Assembly: GCA_017848055.1 (NCBI GenBank)
Contig: JAGALZ010000046.1
Span: 1-64,000 of the forward strand
DNA: 64,000 nucleotides
Reading direction: 5' to 3'
DNA from: Oscillospiraceae bacterium
Lineage (GTDB): Bacteria > Bacillota > Clostridia > Oscillospirales > Ruminococcaceae
This document shows, in pieces, positions 6,701 through 19,867 of this stretch (position 1 is the first letter of the stretch; each line of letters starts with the position of its first letter). Position numbers and translations under genes: made by a program. The notes beneath the pieces are model-generated. The model was not told the DNA's origin. It worked only from the letters and a program-made list of their open reading frames with translations, and did not search any database.

Positions 6701-9337
6701 TTATGCCTTGTAATCAGCGCCGTAGAATGCTCTGAGGTACATATCCTTCATCTCAGCGATGAGTGGGTATCTCGGGTTAGCACCTGTGCACTGGTCGTCG
6801 AATGCCTGGAGCGACATATTGTCAAGCTCAGCGAGGAACTTTTCCTCTGTGGAGCAGCCTGTCATCTCGAACCACTCCTTGATAGTAGCAGGAATGCCGA
6901 CAGCAGCCTTCAGCTCGTCAATCTTCTTGAGAAGTCCCTCGAAGATTTCCATGTCGTCCTTGCCCTGAATGCCGACGAATCTACCAACCTCAGCATATCT
7001 CTCAAGAGCGTGCGGATAGCTGTACTGTGAGAAGGTACCCATCTTAGTAGGAGCCTCATCAATGTTGAACTTCATAACCTCGTTGAGGATGAGTGCGTTG
7101 GCAACACCGTGCGGAACGTGGTGGAAAGCACCAAGCTTGTGAGCGAGTGAGTGACATACACCGAGGAATGCGTTTGCAAATGCCATACCTGCAAGTGTGG
7201 AAGCGTTAGCCATTCTGTCACGTGCTACAACGTTTGTACCGTCGTTGTAAGCTGTTGGCAGATACTTGAATACAAGGTCGATAGCCTTGAGTGCAATGCC
7301 GTCTGTGTAGTCGGTTGCCATAATTGAAGCGTAAGCCTCAAGAGCGTGTGTCAGAACGTCAACACCTGATGCAGATGTGAGTCCCTTAGGAGCGCTCATC
7401 ATAAGGTCTGTGTCAACGATAGCGATGTTAGGCATAAGCTCGTAGTCAGCAAGAGGATACTTTGTACCTGACTGCTCGTCAGTGATAACAGCAAACGGTG
7501 TAACCTCAGAGCCTGTACCCGAGGATGTAGGAACAGCAATAAAGAGTGCCTTTTCACCCATCTTAGGGAAGGTGTAAACTCTCTTTCTGATGTCCATAAA
7601 TCTCATAGCCATATCCATAAAGTCTGCTTCAGGGTGCTCGTAAAGTACCCACATAATCTTAGCAGCGTCCATAGCCGAGCCACCGCCGAGAGCGATGATA
7701 GCGTCAGGCTGGAAGGATGTCATTATAGCCGCACCCTTCTGTGCAGAAGCAAGTGTAGGGTCCGGGTCAATGTCGCAGAATGTAGCGTGAGAAATGCCCA
7801 TCTCGTCGAGTCTTTCGGTGATGCACTTTGTCATACCAAGCTGGTTGAGAACTCTGTCTGTTACGATAAATACCTTCTTCTTGCCGTAAACCTGTGAAAG
7901 CTCACTAAGAGCAACAGGCAGACAGCCCTTCTTGAAGTAAACCTTATCAGGTGTTCTGAACCAAAGCATATTCTCTCTCCTCTCTGCAACAGTCTTGATG
8001 TTAAGAAGGTGCTTTACACCAACGTTCTCGGAAACCGAGTTGCCGCCCCATGAGCCACAGCCAAGTGTGAGGGAAGGAGCAAGGTCGAAGTTGTAAATGT
8101 CACCTATACCGCCGTGTGAGGACGGTGTGTTAACAAGGATTCGGCAGGTCTTCATTCTCTCTGAGAATACCTTTACCTTATCTCTGTCGGTTGCGATGTT
8201 CACATAGAGTGACGATGTGTGTCCGATACCGCCATCGTGAACGAGTCTGTCAGCCTTGTCAAGAGCGTCCTCAAAGGACTCAGCCTTGTACATTGCAAGT
8301 ACAGGGGAGAGCTTCTCGTGAGCGAACTCTTCTTCAAGTTCAACAGATTCAACTTCACCGATGAGTATCTTTGTTCTCTGCGGAACCTCTACGCCTGCAA
8401 GCTGTGCAATCTTGTAAGCTGACTGACCAACAATCTTAGCGTTAAGCGAGCCGTTGATGATGATTGTCTTTCTTACCTTTTCGCACTCATCTTCGTTGAG
8501 AACATAGCAGCCTCTGTATATAAACTCCTTCTTCACTTCATCGTAGATGTCCTTGTGAACGATAACAGATTGCTCGGAAGCACAAATCATACCGTTGTCA
8601 AAGGTCTTGGAGTGAATGATGGAGGAAACTGTCATAAGAATGTCAGCAGACTTGTCCACAACAGCAGGAGTGTTACCTGCGCCAACACCGATAGCCGGCT
8701 TGCCGCTTGAGTAAGCAGCCTTAACCATGCCCGGGCCGCCTGTTGCGAGGATTATATCAGCCTCTCTCATAACAGCGTTTGTAAGGTCAAGGGAAGGAAC
8801 GTCAATCCAGCTGATGATTCCTTCAGGAGCACCTGCCTTTACAGCAGCCTCAAGAACGATTCTTGCAGCCTCGATTGTGGACTTCTTAGCTCTTGGGTGA
8901 GGGGAGATGATAATAGCATTTCTTGTCTTGAGAGCTAACAGTGTCTTGAATATAGCAGTGGAAGTCGGGTTTGTTGTCGGGATAACAGCGGCTATAACAC
9001 CGATAGGCTCAGCAACTCTTGCAGTACCGAAGGCCTCATCTCTGTCGATAACACCGCAGGTCTTTGTGTCCTTGTAAGCATTGTAGATATACTCTGAAGC
9101 ATAGTTGTTCTTGATAACCTTGTCTTCAACAACGCCCATACCTGTTTCCTCAACAGCAAGCTGTGCAAGCGGAATTCTTGCCTTGTTTGCAGCGAGTGCA
9201 GCAGCCTTGAAAATAGCGTCAACCTGTTCCTGAGAGTAGGTAGCAAATCTTGCCTGAGCCTCTCTCATAACAGCGAGGCGGGACATAAGAGCGTCAACAT
9301 TGTCGATGATAGCAATAGTGTTTTCGTTCTGTGCCAT
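6701..9337 (-). CDS. adhE: bifunctional acetaldehyde-CoA/alcohol dehydrogenase
   Basis: 878 residues from the ATG at 9337 (GGAGG 9 bases upstream; an upstream in-frame ATG has no ribosome site). Converts acetyl-CoA to acetaldehyde and then ethanol, using two NADH. The N-terminal aldehyde dehydrogenase half shows FDNGMICASEQSVIV with the catalytic Cys. The C-terminal iron alcohol dehydrogenase half shows GGGSAMDAAKI, TSSGTGSEVTPFAVI and the iron ligands in HALEAY and GVCHSLAHKLGAFHHVPHG. Full family length with no lesions. It has its own promoter and terminator. Rex-type control is likely from family knowledge, since rex lies nearby, but no full Rex palindrome is seen. Confidence 0.97.
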   Translation of the reverse strand: MAQNENTIAIIDNVDALMSRLAVMREAQARFATYSQEQVDAIFKAAALAANKARIPLAQLAVEETGMGVVEDKVIKNNYASEYIYNAYKDTKTCGVIDRDEAFGTARVAEPIGVIAAVIPTTNPTSTAIFKTLLALKTRNAIIISPHPRAKKSTIEAARIVLEAAVKAGAPEGIISWIDVPSLDLTNAVMREADIILATGGPGMVKAAYSSGKPAIGVGAGNTPAVVDKSADILMTVSSIIHSKTFDNGMICASEQSVIVHKDIYDEVKKEFIYRGCYVLNEDECEKVRKTIIINGSLNAKIVGQSAYKIAQLAGVEVPQRTKILIGEVESVELEEEFAHEKLSPVLAMYKAESFEDALDKADRLVHDGGIGHTSSLYVNIATDRDKVKVFSERMKTCRILVNTPSSHGGIGDIYNFDLAPSLTLGCGSWGGNSVSENVGVKHLLNIKTVAERRENMLWFRTPDKVYFKKGCLPVALSELSQVYGKKKVFIVTDRVLNQLGMTKCITERLDEMGISHATFCDIDPDPTLASAQKGAAIMTSFQPDAIIALGGGSAMDAAKIMWVLYEHPEADFMDMAMRFMDIRKRVYTFPKMGEKALFIAVPTSSGTGSEVTPFAVITDEQSGTKYPLADYELMPNIAIVDTDLMMSAPKGLTSASGVDVLTHALEAYASIMATDYTDGIALKAIDLVFKYLPTAYNDGTNVVARDRMANASTLAGMAFANAFLGVCHSLAHKLGAFHHVPHGVANALILNEVMKFNIDEAPTKMGTFSQYSYPHALERYAEVGRFVGIQGKDDMEIFEGLLKKIDELKAAVGIPATIKEWFEMTGCSTEEKFLAELDNMSLQAFDDQCTGANPRYPLIAEMKDMYLRAFYGADYKA

Positions 9338-14543: not shown

Positions 14544-14572
14544 TTGACAAATTTTAACTGCGGTGTTACAAT
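14544..14572 (+). promoter_or_regulatory. promoter of the leader peptide/ABC exporter operon
   Basis: TTGACA (14544-14549) and TACAAT (14567-14572) with a 17-base spacer, about 60 bases before the leader peptide start. Confidence 0.75.
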
Positions 14573-14633
14573 GACAAAGTCAGATTGTATTTTAAGCGTA
14601 GAGAATACGCAAATTTATATGAGAGGAGCGGAC

Positions 14634-14717
14634 ATGATGACAAGAATAGCTAATACTTTGATGATAACCAATAAGCATATCCATGTCTCGGGTACCCGTG
14701 TCCGTCTTGTCAGATAA
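14634..14717 (+). CDS. 27-residue leader peptide, probable attenuator
   Basis: Starts ATG ATG after AGAGGAG (5-base spacing). The peptide begins MMTRIANTLMITNK and ends SGTRVRLVR. The basic end contains R-V-R, the Arg/Lys-x-Arg/Lys type on which macrolide-bound ribosomes are known to stall in erm leaders. Its stop codon lies 25 bases before a strong terminator, and the large exporter genes follow. The arrangement resembles the BmrB leader of the Bacillus subtilis bmrCD exporter, which controls transcription by ribosome-mediated attenuation. That this peptide works the same way is inference. Confidence 0.6.
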   Translation: MMTRIANTLMITNKHIHVSGTRVRLVR

Positions 14718-14742
14718 CAGTCGGATATTTAAAGCGTATTGC

Positions 14743-14775
14743 GCCCTCGGCAGGTTATGTGCCGAGGGCTTTTTT
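14743..14775 (+). terminator. attenuator terminator between leader peptide and ABC genes
   Basis: 10-bp perfect stem GCCCTCGGCA / TGCCGAGGGC (14743-14752, 14760-14769), loop GGTTATG, then six T residues. It lies between promoter and first structural gene, so read-through must be regulated or partial. A weaker hairpin (TCCG...CGGA, 14701-14725) spans the leader stop codon and would be disturbed by a stalled ribosome. Confidence 0.8.
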
Positions 14776-14808
14776 ATGCTCCGAAGAAAGAAAAAAGGAG
14801 GAAATGAT

Positions 14809-17079
14809 ATGAAATTTTTCGACGTAATGCAGCCGCAGATATCGCTCTCACTCGAAAAACGAGGCGTAAATCCCGACGAGCTTATGTACTGCGTTAAAGC
14901 TGACCTTGACGGCGAAGGCTGCTACTATGACGTGTATGTTACCTTCTCAAAGCAGTCGCTATACGTCATAAGCGGATACGAAATCTACGGCAGACCGAAA
15001 AGAAATGAAAAGCGTCGTCTCTTGCAGGATTTCGAGGTCAAGGACTATAGTGAAATCCCACTTGAAACCGTAAAGAGAATGTACGTTGACCGCTACCAGT
15101 ATTCAGCACGTCTTATGATTGAGGATAACGAAGGGAAGGAATACCCGATAGCAAGATTTTCTCTCGGATTCTCGGATAAATTCGAGAAGTTTTCCCAAAG
15201 AGTGAACGCAACAGTAAATAATGAGCCGATAGACGACAGACTGCTTGAATCTGTGAAAACCCACTGTGAAATATGCGGTGAAAAATTCCCCGACCCTAAC
15301 CGCCCCGTGTGTCCTTACTGCGTAGATAAGCACAGCATCGTAAAGCGAATGCTTACAATGTTCAAGGACTTCAAGCTTGAGGTTTTCCTTATCCTGCTTA
15401 CTCTTATTATCTCAATGGCGCTGAGCGTTATCGCACCGGTGTTCAGCTCGCAGATGTTCTATGACGACGTGCTTACTGAGGGCGGAAAGTATTACGGAAA
15501 GGTGCTTCAGATTGTCCTTGCAATCGTCGCAGTAAACGTACTTTCAATGATACTCAGAGTCGTGTCAGGTGTTATAACTTCAAGAATTGTACCTATGGTT
15601 ATACATAAGCTGAGAGTAAAGATATTCGCATCCCTGCAGAATCTCTCGCTCGACTTTTTCACAAGCAAGCAGACAGGCTCGCTCATGTCAAGAGTAGACC
15701 GTGACAGCCAGAATGTGTACTGGTTCTTTGTCGATATAGTCCCGTACGGAATTATGAATTTAGTCAGAATGCTCGGCATTGCGGTGATTATGACTGTAAT
15801 AAGTCCCGTGCTTGCAATAGGCGTTATCGTGACAATCGCCGTTATCCATATCGTCCAGCACAGATTTTATAAAAGCCAGCGAAAGCTCTACCGTAAGTTT
15901 GATATCGCAACAAGAAGTGCCAACTCCGTTCTTTCGGATGTTATGAACGGCCAGCGTGTCGTAAAGGCGTTTGCCCGTGAGGACGACGAGTCAAAGCGTT
16001 ATAATAAGCGAAATGAGGAAGCGTACAGTGTAAATCTTCGTATCAACGGCAGAATGGCAAGGACAGTACCATTCATCTGGTCTGTCTGCCGAATAGTCAA
16101 CCAGAGCGTTTTCTGCCTCGGTGCGTTTATGGTAATCAAGGGCTATATCGCATTCGGTGCCCTTACCGCACTCGTTTCCTATACGAATATGACCTATGAG
16201 CCGATTAACTTTTTTACCTGGATTGGCGACCGCTGGGCAAGATGTATGGACGCCGCTTCAAGAATGTTTGAGATTATGGACTCAGAGCCTACAGTCAAGC
16301 AGGCTGAAAACCCCGTAAGAAGAGAAAACCTCAAGGGTAATATCGAGCTTCGTAACGTAAGCTTTGAGTATGAAGCTGGAATACCGATAATAAAGAACGT
16401 TTCCTTCAAGGTTAAGGAAGGTCAGATGTTCGGAATCGTCGGAAAAACCGGTGCCGGCAAGTCAACAATCATAAACCTCATCGCAAGACTCTATGACGTA
16501 ACGGGCGGCGAGATTTTAATCGACGGTGTCCCGATAAGAGAGCTTGCATTTGAGGATTTGAGAAGAAATATCGGTATCGTTTCTCAGGAAACCTACCTCT
16601 TTATCGGAAGCATCGCTGACAACATCCGCTATGCAAACCCCGACGCTACAATGGAAGAGGTAATCGAAGCCGCTAAATCCGCACATGCCCACGAGTTTAT
16701 CACAAAGCTCCCCGAGGGCTATAATACAATGATAGGTGAGTCAAATATCTCGCTCTCAGGCGGCGAAAAGCAGAGAATTTCCATCGCCCGTGCCATCATC
16801 CAGAAGCCGAATATTCTCATTCTCGACGAGGCAACAGCTTCAATGGATACAAGAACCGAGCGGAAGATTCAGACAGCTATCGACGAGCTGAAAAAGGGAA
16901 GAACTATCATCTCAATCGCACATAGATTATCAACTCTCCGTGATGCAGATGTTCTCTGTGTTATCGAAAACGGAGAAATGAAGGAAATGGGTACCCATGA
17001 TGAGCTTATCAGAAACAAGGGCAAGTATTTTGACCTCTATAAGCTCCAGTCCCAGGCACTCAAATTCATCAATGACTAA
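14809..17079 (+). CDS. ABC exporter half-transporter with N-terminal zinc-ribbon domain
   Basis: 756 residues; ATG 14809 has AGGAGG 7 bases upstream. Order: soluble N-terminal domain (1-150), zinc ribbon C153-x2-C156 ... C168-x2-C171, six-helix exporter domain (about 185-480), nucleotide-binding domain (about 510-756) with Walker A GIVGKTGAGKSTI, signature NISLSGGEKQRISIARA, Walker B ILILDEATASMDT and H-loop SIAHRLSTL. All ATPase motifs look active. The N-terminal extension is unusual for exporters and recurs in divergent form in the partner gene at 17656. It probably forms a heterodimer with that partner; substrate unknown. Confidence 0.85.
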   Translation: MKFFDVMQPQISLSLEKRGVNPDELMYCVKADLDGEGCYYDVYVTFSKQSLYVISGYEIYGRPKRNEKRRLLQDFEVKDYSEIPLETVKRMYVDRYQYSARLMIEDNEGKEYPIARFSLGFSDKFEKFSQRVNATVNNEPIDDRLLESVKTHCEICGEKFPDPNRPVCPYCVDKHSIVKRMLTMFKDFKLEVFLILLTLIISMALSVIAPVFSSQMFYDDVLTEGGKYYGKVLQIVLAIVAVNVLSMILRVVSGVITSRIVPMVIHKLRVKIFASLQNLSLDFFTSKQTGSLMSRVDRDSQNVYWFFVDIVPYGIMNLVRMLGIAVIMTVISPVLAIGVIVTIAVIHIVQHRFYKSQRKLYRKFDIATRSANSVLSDVMNGQRVVKAFAREDDESKRYNKRNEEAYSVNLRINGRMARTVPFIWSVCRIVNQSVFCLGAFMVIKGYIAFGALTALVSYTNMTYEPINFFTWIGDRWARCMDAASRMFEIMDSEPTVKQAENPVRRENLKGNIELRNVSFEYEAGIPIIKNVSFKVKEGQMFGIVGKTGAGKSTIINLIARLYDVTGGEILIDGVPIRELAFEDLRRNIGIVSQETYLFIGSIADNIRYANPDATMEEVIEAAKSAHAHEFITKLPEGYNTMIGESNISLSGGEKQRISIARAIIQKPNILILDEATASMDTRTERKIQTAIDELKKGRTIISIAHRLSTLRDADVLCVIENGEMKEMGTHDELIRNKGKYFDLYKLQSQALKFIND

Positions 17080-17092
17080 GGAGTGAAAATAT

Positions 17093-17626
17093 ATGCAGGA
17101 TATCATAGAAAGCTACGAAGCAGATAAGCTCAGCATCCTCGATTGCGCCGAGCTTAAGTTTTCCAAAGAGGAAAGCGGATATATGACGCTCGAGTATAAG
17201 GGCAATACCTACCATAAGGTAAACCTTACACGCCTACAGCCGTTTTACGAAAAGAACCGCTTTATCAGCGTGCATATCGAAAACGAGGAAAGACAGTTCC
17301 GAGAGATAGGCGTTATCGAGGATATCGAAAGCCTGCCGAAGGAGCAGTTTGAGCTTGTCAATAATTTTCTTGAGTATAAGTACTATATGCCGCTTATCAC
17401 GAAAATCTATTCGGTCAAGGAAAATATGCGTGGCTCGCTGTTTGTAAAAGCTGATACCACGGCAGGCGAGAAAACGATATGTATCCGTGACTGGTACCGC
17501 AACTTCAAGCTCATAGGCGGTAAATATCTCTATGTCTGCGACGCTGACGGCAACAAGTATTACTGCGACGACGTAGAGAAAAGACTCGACAGCAAGAGCA
17601 TCTCCGCAATGGAAATGTTCACCTAA
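17093..17626 (+). CDS. DUF1854 family protein, exporter-associated
   Basis: 177 residues, starting 13 bases after the first ABC gene. It matches the DUF1854 layout: a strand pair near the start (LEYKGNTYHKVNLTRLQPF), FREIGVIEDIESLP, then L-E-Y-K-Y-Y-M-P-L-I-T-K-I, and the late motif IRDWYRNFKLIGGKYLYVCDADGNKY. No signal peptide or membrane helix, so cytosolic. In other bacteria DUF1854 genes neighbour ABC exporters, some annotated with cyanophycin metabolism; no cyanophycin gene is seen here. Likely an accessory subunit of the exporter. Confidence 0.75.
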   Translation: MQDIIESYEADKLSILDCAELKFSKEESGYMTLEYKGNTYHKVNLTRLQPFYEKNRFISVHIENEERQFREIGVIEDIESLPKEQFELVNNFLEYKYYMPLITKIYSVKENMRGSLFVKADTTAGEKTICIRDWYRNFKLIGGKYLYVCDADGNKYYCDDVEKRLDSKSISAMEMFT

Positions 17627-17655
17627 ACAAAACCCGAAAGGAAATATAAAGCCTT

Positions 17656-19830
17656 ATGAATTTAAAAACATCATTCCCGAAAGGAGTAACGGAAAGCAGT
17701 GTCCTGTTTTCTCTGCCGTATGACCTTACAACCGACAGCGAAAGAGTAAACGGACACCTGTGCGTCACCGACAGCGAGCTTGTGGTGTATCTTAATGATG
17801 AGATTATAAAACGCTTTTATATCGACGATTTTTCTGAGTTTAAATGCGAAAAGAATTACGGCTCATCATCGCTTATCGGCGAAAAGAAAAGCGGCGAAAG
17901 CATCTGCTTGTGCGTTTTCCGCCAGCAGGAGTTTCTGCGTTATGCAGAGCTTTCAAAGCTGCTTGATTATTACGCCCGTACAGGAAAGCTCATAACCGAA
18001 ACCGACGAGGACGAGCCTACCTGCGAAAAGTGCGGTATACCGCTCGACGGCGCATCCGAATGCCCCTTCTGTGCAAAGAAAAGCAAGCTCTTTCTGAAGC
18101 TTATCAAAAGAGTGAAGCCATATAGAAAATACTTTATCATAGCCGTTTTGTGCACAATCTTCGAGCAGTGCGTCTGGATAATCGTGCCGAATATTTCAAG
18201 GCTTATAATCGACGATTATGTAGTACCTAAGAATACCGACTGGTCAGGCCTTGCGTTCCTGTGTATAGCACTCATAGGACTCGTCGGATTTACTTGTATT
18301 CCTAACCACCTCAATATGAAGTGCAGCTTTAAAGTCGCTCTGAATATGGGTAAGGATTTGCGTGAAGAAGTCTTCGCAAAATCAGAATCGCTTTCAATGT
18401 CGTCTGTGACAAAGAAAACAGCAGGTGAGCTTATACGACGTGTATCAGGTGACGCCGCAAAGCTCGAGGACTTCGTTACCACAAACGGTAAGGACTTGAT
18501 AGTCGATATCATTTCGCTTGTCGTGCTTGTAGTAATTATCTGTTGTATGAATTTCAAACTCGCTATGCTCGTGCTCCTGCCGATACCGTTTGTGTTTCTG
18601 CTTGTCGATAAGCTCTTTCACATTATGGCAAAGCGCTATACAAGAGTATGGCGAAATATGACCGAGCACGACTCCACTCTACATGATATCCTAAACGGTA
18701 TCAGAGTCGTAAAATCCTACGGCACCGAGGTGCAGGAAATTCAGCGTTATACAGGCTGCTCACTCAAAGCCGCAAAAGCGTCCGTAAGAGCCGAAATTGT
18801 CTGGTATCTCACAATCCCGATTTCAGAGCTTATTATGACAGTCGGAAACTTCCTCGTTCTGTATTTCGGCGGAAATCTCATAATCGACGGCGGACTCAGA
18901 CTCGGAGAGCTTGTGCAGTTTACAACCTATGTTTCAATGCTCTATGACCCGATAAGAAGATTCATACATATTCCGAAACAGCTTGCGGATGCCGCAGTTT
19001 CGGCAAGCAAGGTGTTCGAGGTTCTAGAGGATAAGAACGGAATCGAGGAAATCGAAAACCCCGTCGAGCTTGATATCAAAGGCGATATCGAGTTTAAGAA
19101 CGTATTCTTCGGATACCGTGAGTATGACCCCGTCCTGAAGGATATTTCGCTTAAAATCAATAAGGGCGAAATGGTCGGAATTGTCGGCCACTCAGGTGTC
19201 GGAAAGTCCACTATGATAAACCTCATTCTAAGACTTTACGACGTGACAGGCGGCGAAATCTTAATCGACGGCACCGATATCAGAAAGCTCTCGCAGAAGA
19301 GCCTGCGAAGCCAGATAGGCGTAGTTTTGCAGGAAACCTTCCTGTTCGACGGCTCTGTGCTTGAAAATATCTGCTATGCAAAGCCGGGTGCTACATTCGA
19401 GGAGGTTATCAAGGCAGCGAAAATCGCCAATGCCCACGACTTTATCACAAAGCTCCCCGACGGCTATAATACAAGGGTAGGTAATAAGGGCTTCCAGCTT
19501 TCAGGCGGTGAAAGACAAAGAGTCGCAATCGCCAGGGCTATTCTCCATGACCCTAAGATTATCATTCTCGACGAAGCAACCGCCTCTCTTGATACCGAAA
19601 CCGAAAAGCAGATTCAGGAGGCTCTCGGCAGACTTACAAAGGGCAGAACAACAATCGCCATTGCCCACAGACTCTCAACTCTCTCTGAAGCCGACAGACT
19701 CATCGTGCTCGATAAGGGTAAGCTCGCAGAGTTTGATACCCACGAAAACCTCATGCGTAACAAGGGTGTTTACTATAAGCTCGTTATGGCACAAAGACAA
19801 ACAACAAAGATGAAAAAAGCAAATGCATAA
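17656..19830 (+). CDS. ABC exporter half-transporter with N-terminal zinc-ribbon domain (partner)
   Basis: 724 residues, 29 bases after the DUF1854 gene. Same plan as the first ABC protein: soluble domain (1-115), zinc ribbon C123-x2-C126 ... C136-x2-C139, exporter membrane domain, and ATPase domain with Walker A GIVGHSGVGKSTM, signature FQLSGGERQRVAIARA, Walker B IIILDEATASLDT and AIAHRLSTL. Both half-transporters carry full ATPase motifs, so a heterodimer with two active sites is likely. The operon closes with a terminator shared with the convergent genes. Confidence 0.85.
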   Translation: MNLKTSFPKGVTESSVLFSLPYDLTTDSERVNGHLCVTDSELVVYLNDEIIKRFYIDDFSEFKCEKNYGSSSLIGEKKSGESICLCVFRQQEFLRYAELSKLLDYYARTGKLITETDEDEPTCEKCGIPLDGASECPFCAKKSKLFLKLIKRVKPYRKYFIIAVLCTIFEQCVWIIVPNISRLIIDDYVVPKNTDWSGLAFLCIALIGLVGFTCIPNHLNMKCSFKVALNMGKDLREEVFAKSESLSMSSVTKKTAGELIRRVSGDAAKLEDFVTTNGKDLIVDIISLVVLVVIICCMNFKLAMLVLLPIPFVFLLVDKLFHIMAKRYTRVWRNMTEHDSTLHDILNGIRVVKSYGTEVQEIQRYTGCSLKAAKASVRAEIVWYLTIPISELIMTVGNFLVLYFGGNLIIDGGLRLGELVQFTTYVSMLYDPIRRFIHIPKQLADAAVSASKVFEVLEDKNGIEEIENPVELDIKGDIEFKNVFFGYREYDPVLKDISLKINKGEMVGIVGHSGVGKSTMINLILRLYDVTGGEILIDGTDIRKLSQKSLRSQIGVVLQETFLFDGSVLENICYAKPGATFEEVIKAAKIANAHDFITKLPDGYNTRVGNKGFQLSGGERQRVAIARAILHDPKIIILDEATASLDTETEKQIQEALGRLTKGRTTIAIAHRLSTLSEADRLIVLDKGKLAEFDTHENLMRNKGVYYKLVMAQRQTTKMKKANA

Positions 19831-19835
19831 AGCAA

Positions 19836-19867
19836 AAGGCTGGCAGAGTTAATTCTCTGTCAGCCTT
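19836..19867. terminator. bidirectional terminator
   Basis: 13-bp stem AAGGCTGGCAGAG / CTCTGTCAGCCTT (G-U pair) between convergent genes, with A and T runs on both sides. Confidence 0.75.

Follow-up and report, generated by a model that had tools for sequence, protein, structure and literature searches.

We analysed a stretch of 64,000 nucleotides (nt) from an Oscillospiraceae bacterium (GenBank assembly GCA_017848055.1, contig JAGALZ010000046.1, forward strand), called the window below, which contains an operon of two ABC half-exporter genes (ABC1 and ABC2) with a gene for a DUF1854 protein between them, and, upstream, a short leader open reading frame (ORF) with its own promoter and terminator. 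An earlier note on this DNA had listed a promoter, a 27-codon leader, a 10-bp terminator, two ABC half-exporters, and a DUF1854 gene, and all of these were confirmed. Comparison with relatives points to a transcription attenuator of the exporter operon, which probably responds to where the ribosome stands on the leader. The features of the locus are:

14544-14572, + strand: sigma-70-type promoter, TTGACA-17-TACAAT, 11 of 12 matches
14624-14628, + strand: leader Shine-Dalgarno (SD) sequence AGGAG, 5 nt ahead of the ATG, from the sequence
14634-14717, + strand: leader ORF of 27 codons, MMTRIANTLMITNKHIHVSGTRVRLVR, from translation
14628-14636, + strand: 5′ strand of pairing P1, GCGGACATG, running from the final SD base to the end of the start codon; partner 14697-14705
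14697-14705, + strand: 3′ strand of P1 (the anti-SD segment), CGTGTCCGT, 9 nt ahead of the leader stop codon
14681-14693, + strand: 5′ strand of the predicted antiterminator, from the minimum free energy (MFE) fold of the RNA with its SD end removed
14698-14728, + strand: predicted hairpin P2 around the leader stop codon, an alternative to P1, from the MFE fold of the SD-blocked RNA
14743-14775, + strand: intrinsic terminator, a 10-bp stem (14743-14769) followed by T6
14743-14754, + strand: 5′ arm of the terminator, which is also the predicted 3′ strand of the antiterminator
14809-17079, + strand: ABC1 half-exporter with a predicted PH-like N-terminal domain, a 4-Cys zinc ribbon, and ABC membrane and ATPase domains (Pfam, alignment, fold search)
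17093-17626, + strand: DUF1854 protein (PF08909, 99.2 bits against a gathering cut-off of 26.8)
17656-19830, + strand: ABC2 half-exporter with two CxxC motifs (Pfam)
19836-19867, + strand: terminator-like site at the operon end, 13 pairs

The promoter is the joint best of 25 promoter-like sites found between 12000 and 22000 (14.0 in shuffles), tied with one site on the minus strand (14475-14447); terminator-like sites as a class number 7 in the stretch against 9.9 in shuffles, i.e., they show no excess. The duplex of the leader SD was calculated at -10.7 kcal/mol, counted from the second ATG. In the predicted antiterminator, 14681-14693 pairs with 14743-14754 and encloses the hairpin at 14698-14728; predicted hairpins around the stop codon also appear in several relatives. 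Translational coupling of the leader to ABC1 is not favoured, since the leader stop codon in the window lies 91 nt 5′ of ABC1 with the terminator between them. An Rfam scan of the window leader gave no family at threshold, and the sole sub-threshold match in the window (anti-hemB, 18.3 against 49.5 bits, E = 0.92) looks like chance; likewise, no family reached threshold on the leader in the 24 relatives' loci scanned, only some of which bear a leader.

Distribution of the leader among relatives

Named genomes were scanned by protein alignment for relatives of ABC1, and the best 80 of the 200 found make, together with the window, a set of 81 loci; among them are Ruminococcus bicirculans 80/3 (L107), Ruminococcus albus KH2T6 and AR67 (L121 and L132), and Ruminococcus sp. 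Marseille-P6503 (L111). The DUF1854 gene follows ABC1 in 77 of the 80 relatives' loci, and in the remaining three (L133, L155, and L172) the contig stops before that point; DUF1854 itself occurs in 31 of 100 relative genomes (the window's own counted), in all 10 of the genus, and in 53 of 396 in the family. By an automatic rule, which was formulated after such loci had been seen, a leader ORF and a terminator precede ABC1 in 60 of the 81 loci, compared with 10 of 145 control genes (other genes of these loci that have 120 nt or more of intergenic DNA ahead of them). The full set, which adds a promoter with at least 11 of 12 matches, precedes ABC1 in 48 of the 81 loci and is found at 2 of the 145 controls; both of these control hits are one place, at about base 828 on the minus strand of L152 and L153 (near-identical genomes), before another gene. 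The 12 loci with a leader and terminator and no such promoter were kept out of the pairing tests described below; ten of them, outside the leader clade (see below), appear to be false positives such as the tail of an adjacent gene. From the 48 full-set loci we dropped 4 as near-copies (at least 50% shared 8-mers), leaving 44 representatives. In most loci the terminator is placed after the leader stop codon (median gap 18 nt), and in none of the 44 representatives is there a promoter with at least 10 of 12 matches between terminator and ABC1. The earlier note had proposed to look for a conserved leader peptide and terminator before DUF1854/ABC operons; conservation holds for the leader ORF and the terminator and fails for the peptide sequence.

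All 10 genomes of the genus contain, once each, a leader start matching ...GGRCATGATGACA, with differing peptides; one of the genomes (G006) has one further match to this pattern, inside a 227-residue open frame with no terminator nearby. In a tree of 78 ABC1 proteins (FastTree, with local support only, a midpoint root, and long branches outside the clade flagged by the program), the leader characterises a single clade, which takes in R. albus and R. bicirculans: it is present in 49 of the 53 rows inside and in none of the 25 outside, the four clade rows without an accepted leader being L120, L141, L146, and L165. Two loci on cut contigs (L133 and L139) were not entered, and the program omitted L145; L110, L125, and L114 were scored as leader-bearing by eye or despite a cut contig. 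The leader changes 4 times on the ABC1 tree, compared with 23.8 times with shuffled labels, and the simplest reading of its history is one gain and three losses (L120; L141; and L146 with L165). In L146 and L165, a promoter now lies directly before ABC1.

Base pairing and translation of the leader

In the representatives, the SD region of the leader, which spans the 14 nt ahead of the ORF and its first 6 nt, forms a better duplex with a later part of the same ORF than with shuffled ORFs: the duplex falls in the top 5% of 200 shuffles in 31 of the 44 leaders (combined Fisher 3e-26; because the loci share ancestry, this and the other combined Fisher and p-values given here are too small by an unknown factor). 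The ensemble pairing of SD and start codon shows a smaller effect in the same direction (0.71 against 0.51 in shuffled leaders; 17 of 44 at 5%; combined Fisher 1e-14). For the window, P1 joins GCGGACATG to CGTGTCCGT and ranks 1/200 and 2/200 in two shuffle tests, and an earlier set of 25 loci that included the window agrees (combined Fisher 1e-12 for the SD pairing and 0.002 for the antiterminator). On average an SD fits its own ORF better than foreign SDs do, with a mean of -16.9 kcal/mol compared with -12.5 kcal/mol when the SDs of other leaders are used (permutation p <= 5e-5), a result to be expected of two strands that evolve in step; taken singly, the own pair reaches 5% in 9 of the 44 leaders against other SDs and in 17 of the 44 against other ORFs. 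For example, the close relatives L122 and L123 retain the pairing as GGAGCGGC/GCCGTTCC and GGAGCAGC/GCTGTTTC, respectively, and L117 and L118 have GGAGGGCT and GGAGAGCT, both against the same GGCTCTCC.

The anti-SD segment lies at a median of 71% of the leader ORF and ends a median of 20 nt before the stop codon. In 30 of the 44 leaders (11.3 expected), this end falls within a band 10-30 nt ahead of the stop codon, although the band was picked after the distances had been seen and the window (9 nt) is just outside it; other bands concur (5-35 nt, 36 against 16.4; 0-40 nt, 38 against 21.9). A ribosome that has reached the stop codon would, given the size of its footprint, occlude much of the anti-SD segment.

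The arms of the terminator also fit their own upstream RNA better than that of other leaders (-12.1 against -10.4, permutation p <= 5e-5), a fit behind part of which shared base composition could stand. With the SD end of the RNA removed, which mimics a ribosome there, the terminator arm is captured at 0.65, compared with 0.47 in shuffled leaders (combined Fisher 1e-8); with everything up to the stop codon removed, capture falls to 0.15, a figure that is partly trivial because little upstream RNA is left. In 24 of the 44 leaders, where 13.3 are expected, the best antiterminator helix overlaps or borders the anti-SD segment (p = 6e-4). A competing antiterminator, as predicted here, is supported by the leaders collectively, and not by the window alone.

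The peptide is not conserved. A search of 100 genomes with the 27-mer returned only itself and one weak match (E = 0.37), because the leader peptide is too divergent, and the leaders share too little sequence for a covariance model. Across 11 close leader pairs (some loci being used twice), pN/pS is 0.59 overall, which suggests that translation of the leader ORF is kept, although the ratio spreads from 0.2 to 1.56 and is above 1 in 2 of the 11 pairs; RNA constraints may explain part of it. Gaps are present in 5 of the 11 pairs and fall on codons because the alignment was made on protein; the peptide is recognisable by eye on either side of each gap. According to the earlier note, a peptide that is not conserved in relatives would speak against an attenuator. 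Literally, the peptide is not conserved; we judge this to be the wrong test, since the RNA architecture is the conserved part.

The proposed attenuator and alternative readings

In our view the leader probably acts on the ABC1-DUF1854-ABC2 operon as a transcription attenuator of the bmrB type that depends on ribosome position and not on the peptide, and it would induce the operon when translation of the leader slows; that the RNA folding is conserved and the peptide is not suggests that the exporter is turned on when ribosomes slow down. The putative layout, drawn from sequence comparison, has four strands: the SD with the start codon (strand 1), the late ORF (strand 2), and the 5′ and 3′ arms of the terminator (strands 3 and 4). 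Its three outcomes are a model. If no ribosome initiates, strands 1 and 2 would pair, the terminator would fold, and the operon would be off; a ribosome that reaches the stop codon unhindered would cover strand 2, and the terminator would again fold with the operon off. A ribosome held on the early leader would instead cover strand 1, and strand 2 would refold with downstream RNA; the terminator arm would then be captured, the polymerase would read through, and the operon would be on. The inducing signal would be slowed translation as such, most simply caused by a ribosome-targeting antibiotic, and not any particular peptide or amino acid, and the exporter may relieve translation stress.

A broader proposal, which we offer tentatively and with some doubt, is that the attenuator is lineage-wide and its peptide free of information, that the leader's own SD is the sensing strand by which ribosome traffic is read (initiation, slow-down, and arrival at the stop codon), and that an undescribed PH-like/zinc-ribbon ABC pair with DUF1854 would be controlled in this way as a general translation-stress response in gut and rumen Ruminococcus. 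Ruminococcus species are common in the gut and rumen, and to our knowledge little is known of antibiotic sensing by such bacteria.

Besides the shared ancestry of the loci, the late choice of the 10-30 nt band, the spread of pN/pS, and the four clade rows without a leader, several results weigh against the attenuator. As a plain duplex of upstream RNA with the 5′ arm of the terminator, the antiterminator is weak (4 of 44 at 5%, combined Fisher 0.005), and the local strength of its helix is barely over that of shuffles (p = 0.049). Only 11 of the 44 leaders reach 5% singly for capture of the arm, and in the fold model free RNA captures it at 0.45 already, so that termination without translation would not be clear-cut. 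In the window alone, the antiterminator is no better than shuffles (ranks 119/200 and 121/200; p = 0.33), and the SD pairing is weak in the four PIPVK-type leaders (L104, L105, L108, and L109, with ranks 76, 29, 87, and 14 of 200).

The earlier note had read the locus as a leader-ORF transcription attenuator of the bmrB kind, a part that the conserved and co-varying RNA pairings uphold, and had placed its signal in the peptide, with stalling near the R-V-R codons. In such an explanation, a macrolide- or lincosamide-bound ribosome would be arrested at these codons, as in leaders of the erm type. The window leader does end in GTRVRLVR, and R-x-R occurs in 11 of the 44 leaders compared with 6.3 in shuffled peptides (p = 0.027); but 8 of these 11 leaders (L126, L128, L131, L133, L135, L138, L150, and L173) form one set of similar peptides, which accounts for the excess. 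The wider motif R/K-x-R/K is not enriched (18 of 44 leaders, 17.0 in shuffled peptides), the relatives closest to the window have leaders ending in EAIK, TSLS, and DGRV, and Arg is as frequent as in dinucleotide-shuffled ORFs (0.080 against 0.082). With these counts and a peptide that is not conserved, we do not uphold the R-V-R claim and regard such stalling as very unlikely. Attenuation by an amino acid, in which the leader ribosome would stall at the codons of one scarce residue, shares its strand layout with the classical type, and Gly (0.045 against 0.033, z = 3.2) and Asn (0.072 against 0.056, z = 2.7) do exceed the same composition null. These excesses are small, however, and no other residue is above z = 1.5 (Gln, Trp, Pro, and His are below the null); runs of at least three of one residue occur in just 4 of the 44 peptides, and the operon encodes an exporter and has neither a biosynthetic nor an uptake function, which makes this explanation highly improbable as well. 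The leader peptide appears to carry no detectable signal.

Two further explanations leave the ribosome out of the switch. In a riboswitch or protein-bound RNA, a ligand would pick between P1 with the terminator and the antiterminator, and the ORF would be incidental; conservation of RNA pairing without that of the peptide fits such a switch, as do the other, apparently structured 5′ untranslated regions (UTRs) at some outgroup loci. Yet no conserved aptamer-like sequence core was seen in the leaders, in which complementarity alone is retained, the Rfam scans of the window leader and of the leader loci covered gave no family at threshold, and translation is suggested by the strong SDs, by a pN/pS under 1, and by how far the pairing segment lies from the stop codon; we consider this explanation decidedly unlikely. 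The leader could also be translated with no regulatory role, the terminator being a fixed, partial one that sets the basal level of the exporter. Strong terminators, an antiterminator that is weak in several loci including the window, and the leaderless L146 and L165 with their promoter directly before ABC1 agree with this explanation, which nevertheless gives no role to the co-varying pairing of SD and ORF or to its position before the stop codon, and which seems unlikely to us.

The ribosome-position-dependent attenuator that we prefer is like the bmrB-bmrCD system of Bacillus subtilis in having a leader ORF, alternative stem-loops, an intrinsic terminator, and a two-gene ABC exporter downstream (PMC4191407). 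For bmrB, induction by lincomycin is reported to need translation of the leader: when its start codon is lost, expression drops and lincomycin no longer induces, and optimised codons reduce read-through with the fold-induction unchanged (PMC4191407). A switch that senses the rate of translation and needs no peptide motif would behave in this way. Unlike the bmrB terminator, which is described as lying inside the 53-residue ORF (PMC4191407), the terminator here is past the stop codon in most loci; in addition, the leader's own SD and start codon here would form a strand of the switch, and the transporter differs from bmrCD in its predicted PH-like domain, zinc ribbon, and DUF1854 partner. A Rho-independent terminator in the leader likewise limits the ABC exporter operon patAB of Streptococcus pneumoniae; unlike here, the abstract of that study mentions no leader peptide or ribosome sensing, and the evidence it gives is from terminator mutations (PMC4319486). 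The upstream ORF toiL of topAI-yjhQ in Escherichia coli is reported to respond to several classes of translation inhibitors, with stalls at differing positions, so that no single peptide motif is needed; unlike the leader described here, it is reported to act on translation and Rho-dependent termination and to control a toxin-antitoxin pair (PMC12121999). The antibiotic-response gene vmlR of B. subtilis is also described as being under transcription attenuation, but its product is given as a cytosolic ABC-F factor and not an exporter (PMC9226507).

The kind of mechanism is already known; what would be new is the lineage, a switch strand formed by the leader SD, a peptide that carries no signal, and the type of transporter (no search was made for SD use in other published attenuators). 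No description of this attenuator/exporter system was found in titles and abstract starts, and no paper using the term DUF1854 was found, in searches that lacked most subscription journals. The attenuator would provide a testable handle on an exporter family for which we found no function described, and its 48 natural variants, with diverged sequence and retained base-pairing, should help to show which elements of a ribosome-sensing switch are important.

Exporter proteins and other loci

Both ABC proteins have two CxxC motifs N-terminal to the membrane domain (at 153 and 168 in ABC1, and at 123 and 136 in ABC2), in agreement with the dual zinc ribbon that the earlier note had proposed, and an alignment of 12 ABC1 proteins shows all four zinc-ribbon cysteines to be invariant. 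The N-terminal part of ABC1 (14809-15243 in the window) was modelled as a PH-like domain, an unusual attachment on an ABC exporter, using AlphaFold2 (18 sequences, pLDDT 84.5). Most of the 50 Foldseek matches listed for this model are proteins with PH or PH-like domains, at probabilities near 1, judged by title for some of them and by presumed domain content for others. Among the matches listed, the best E-value is 0.0019 (none is 0.001 or less), and the TM-scores to the query are 0.31 to 0.41. The DUF1854 protein also models well (pLDDT 88), and a comparison of its model with solved folds gave no significant match (best E = 0.011). The earlier note's description of a new type of exporter seems fair for the domain set (the predicted PH-like domain, the zinc ribbon, and the DUF1854 partner). 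A link to cyanophycin, through NCBIfam NF052233 and NF052234, was considered and is unsupported: the ABC proteins score 514.9 and 539.2 against a cut-off of 880, and the DUF1854 protein 40.9 against 150; a search of the genome for cyanophycin synthetase found none over the cut-off (best match 126 against 850 bits).

Outside the leader-bearing loci, other arrangements precede the operon. In one leaderless group (L160, L162, L163, and L166), the operon sits behind another gene and the terminator of that gene, whose product resembles, at its C-terminus, what we take to be tryptophanyl-tRNA synthetase. In a leaderless outgroup (L076, L079, L085, L093, L094, and L098), there is a different, apparently structured 5′ UTR in the 150 nt 5′ of ABC1, with two hairpins in the fold of the six-sequence alignment and no Rfam family at the gathering threshold; L046 and L050 have long, apparently structured 5′ UTRs of another kind before ABC1, with no Rfam match at threshold. 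Extra genes lie between ABC1 and DUF1854 in Ruminococcus sp. Marseille-P6503 (L111, 5769-7141) and in a related metagenome-assembled genome (L106, 5769-6360); judged by eye, they presumably encode an RtcB-like protein and a GNAT-like acetyltransferase, respectively. In R. bicirculans (L107), a fluoride riboswitch (RF01734, 45.4 bits) is located near the operon, at 8593-8664.

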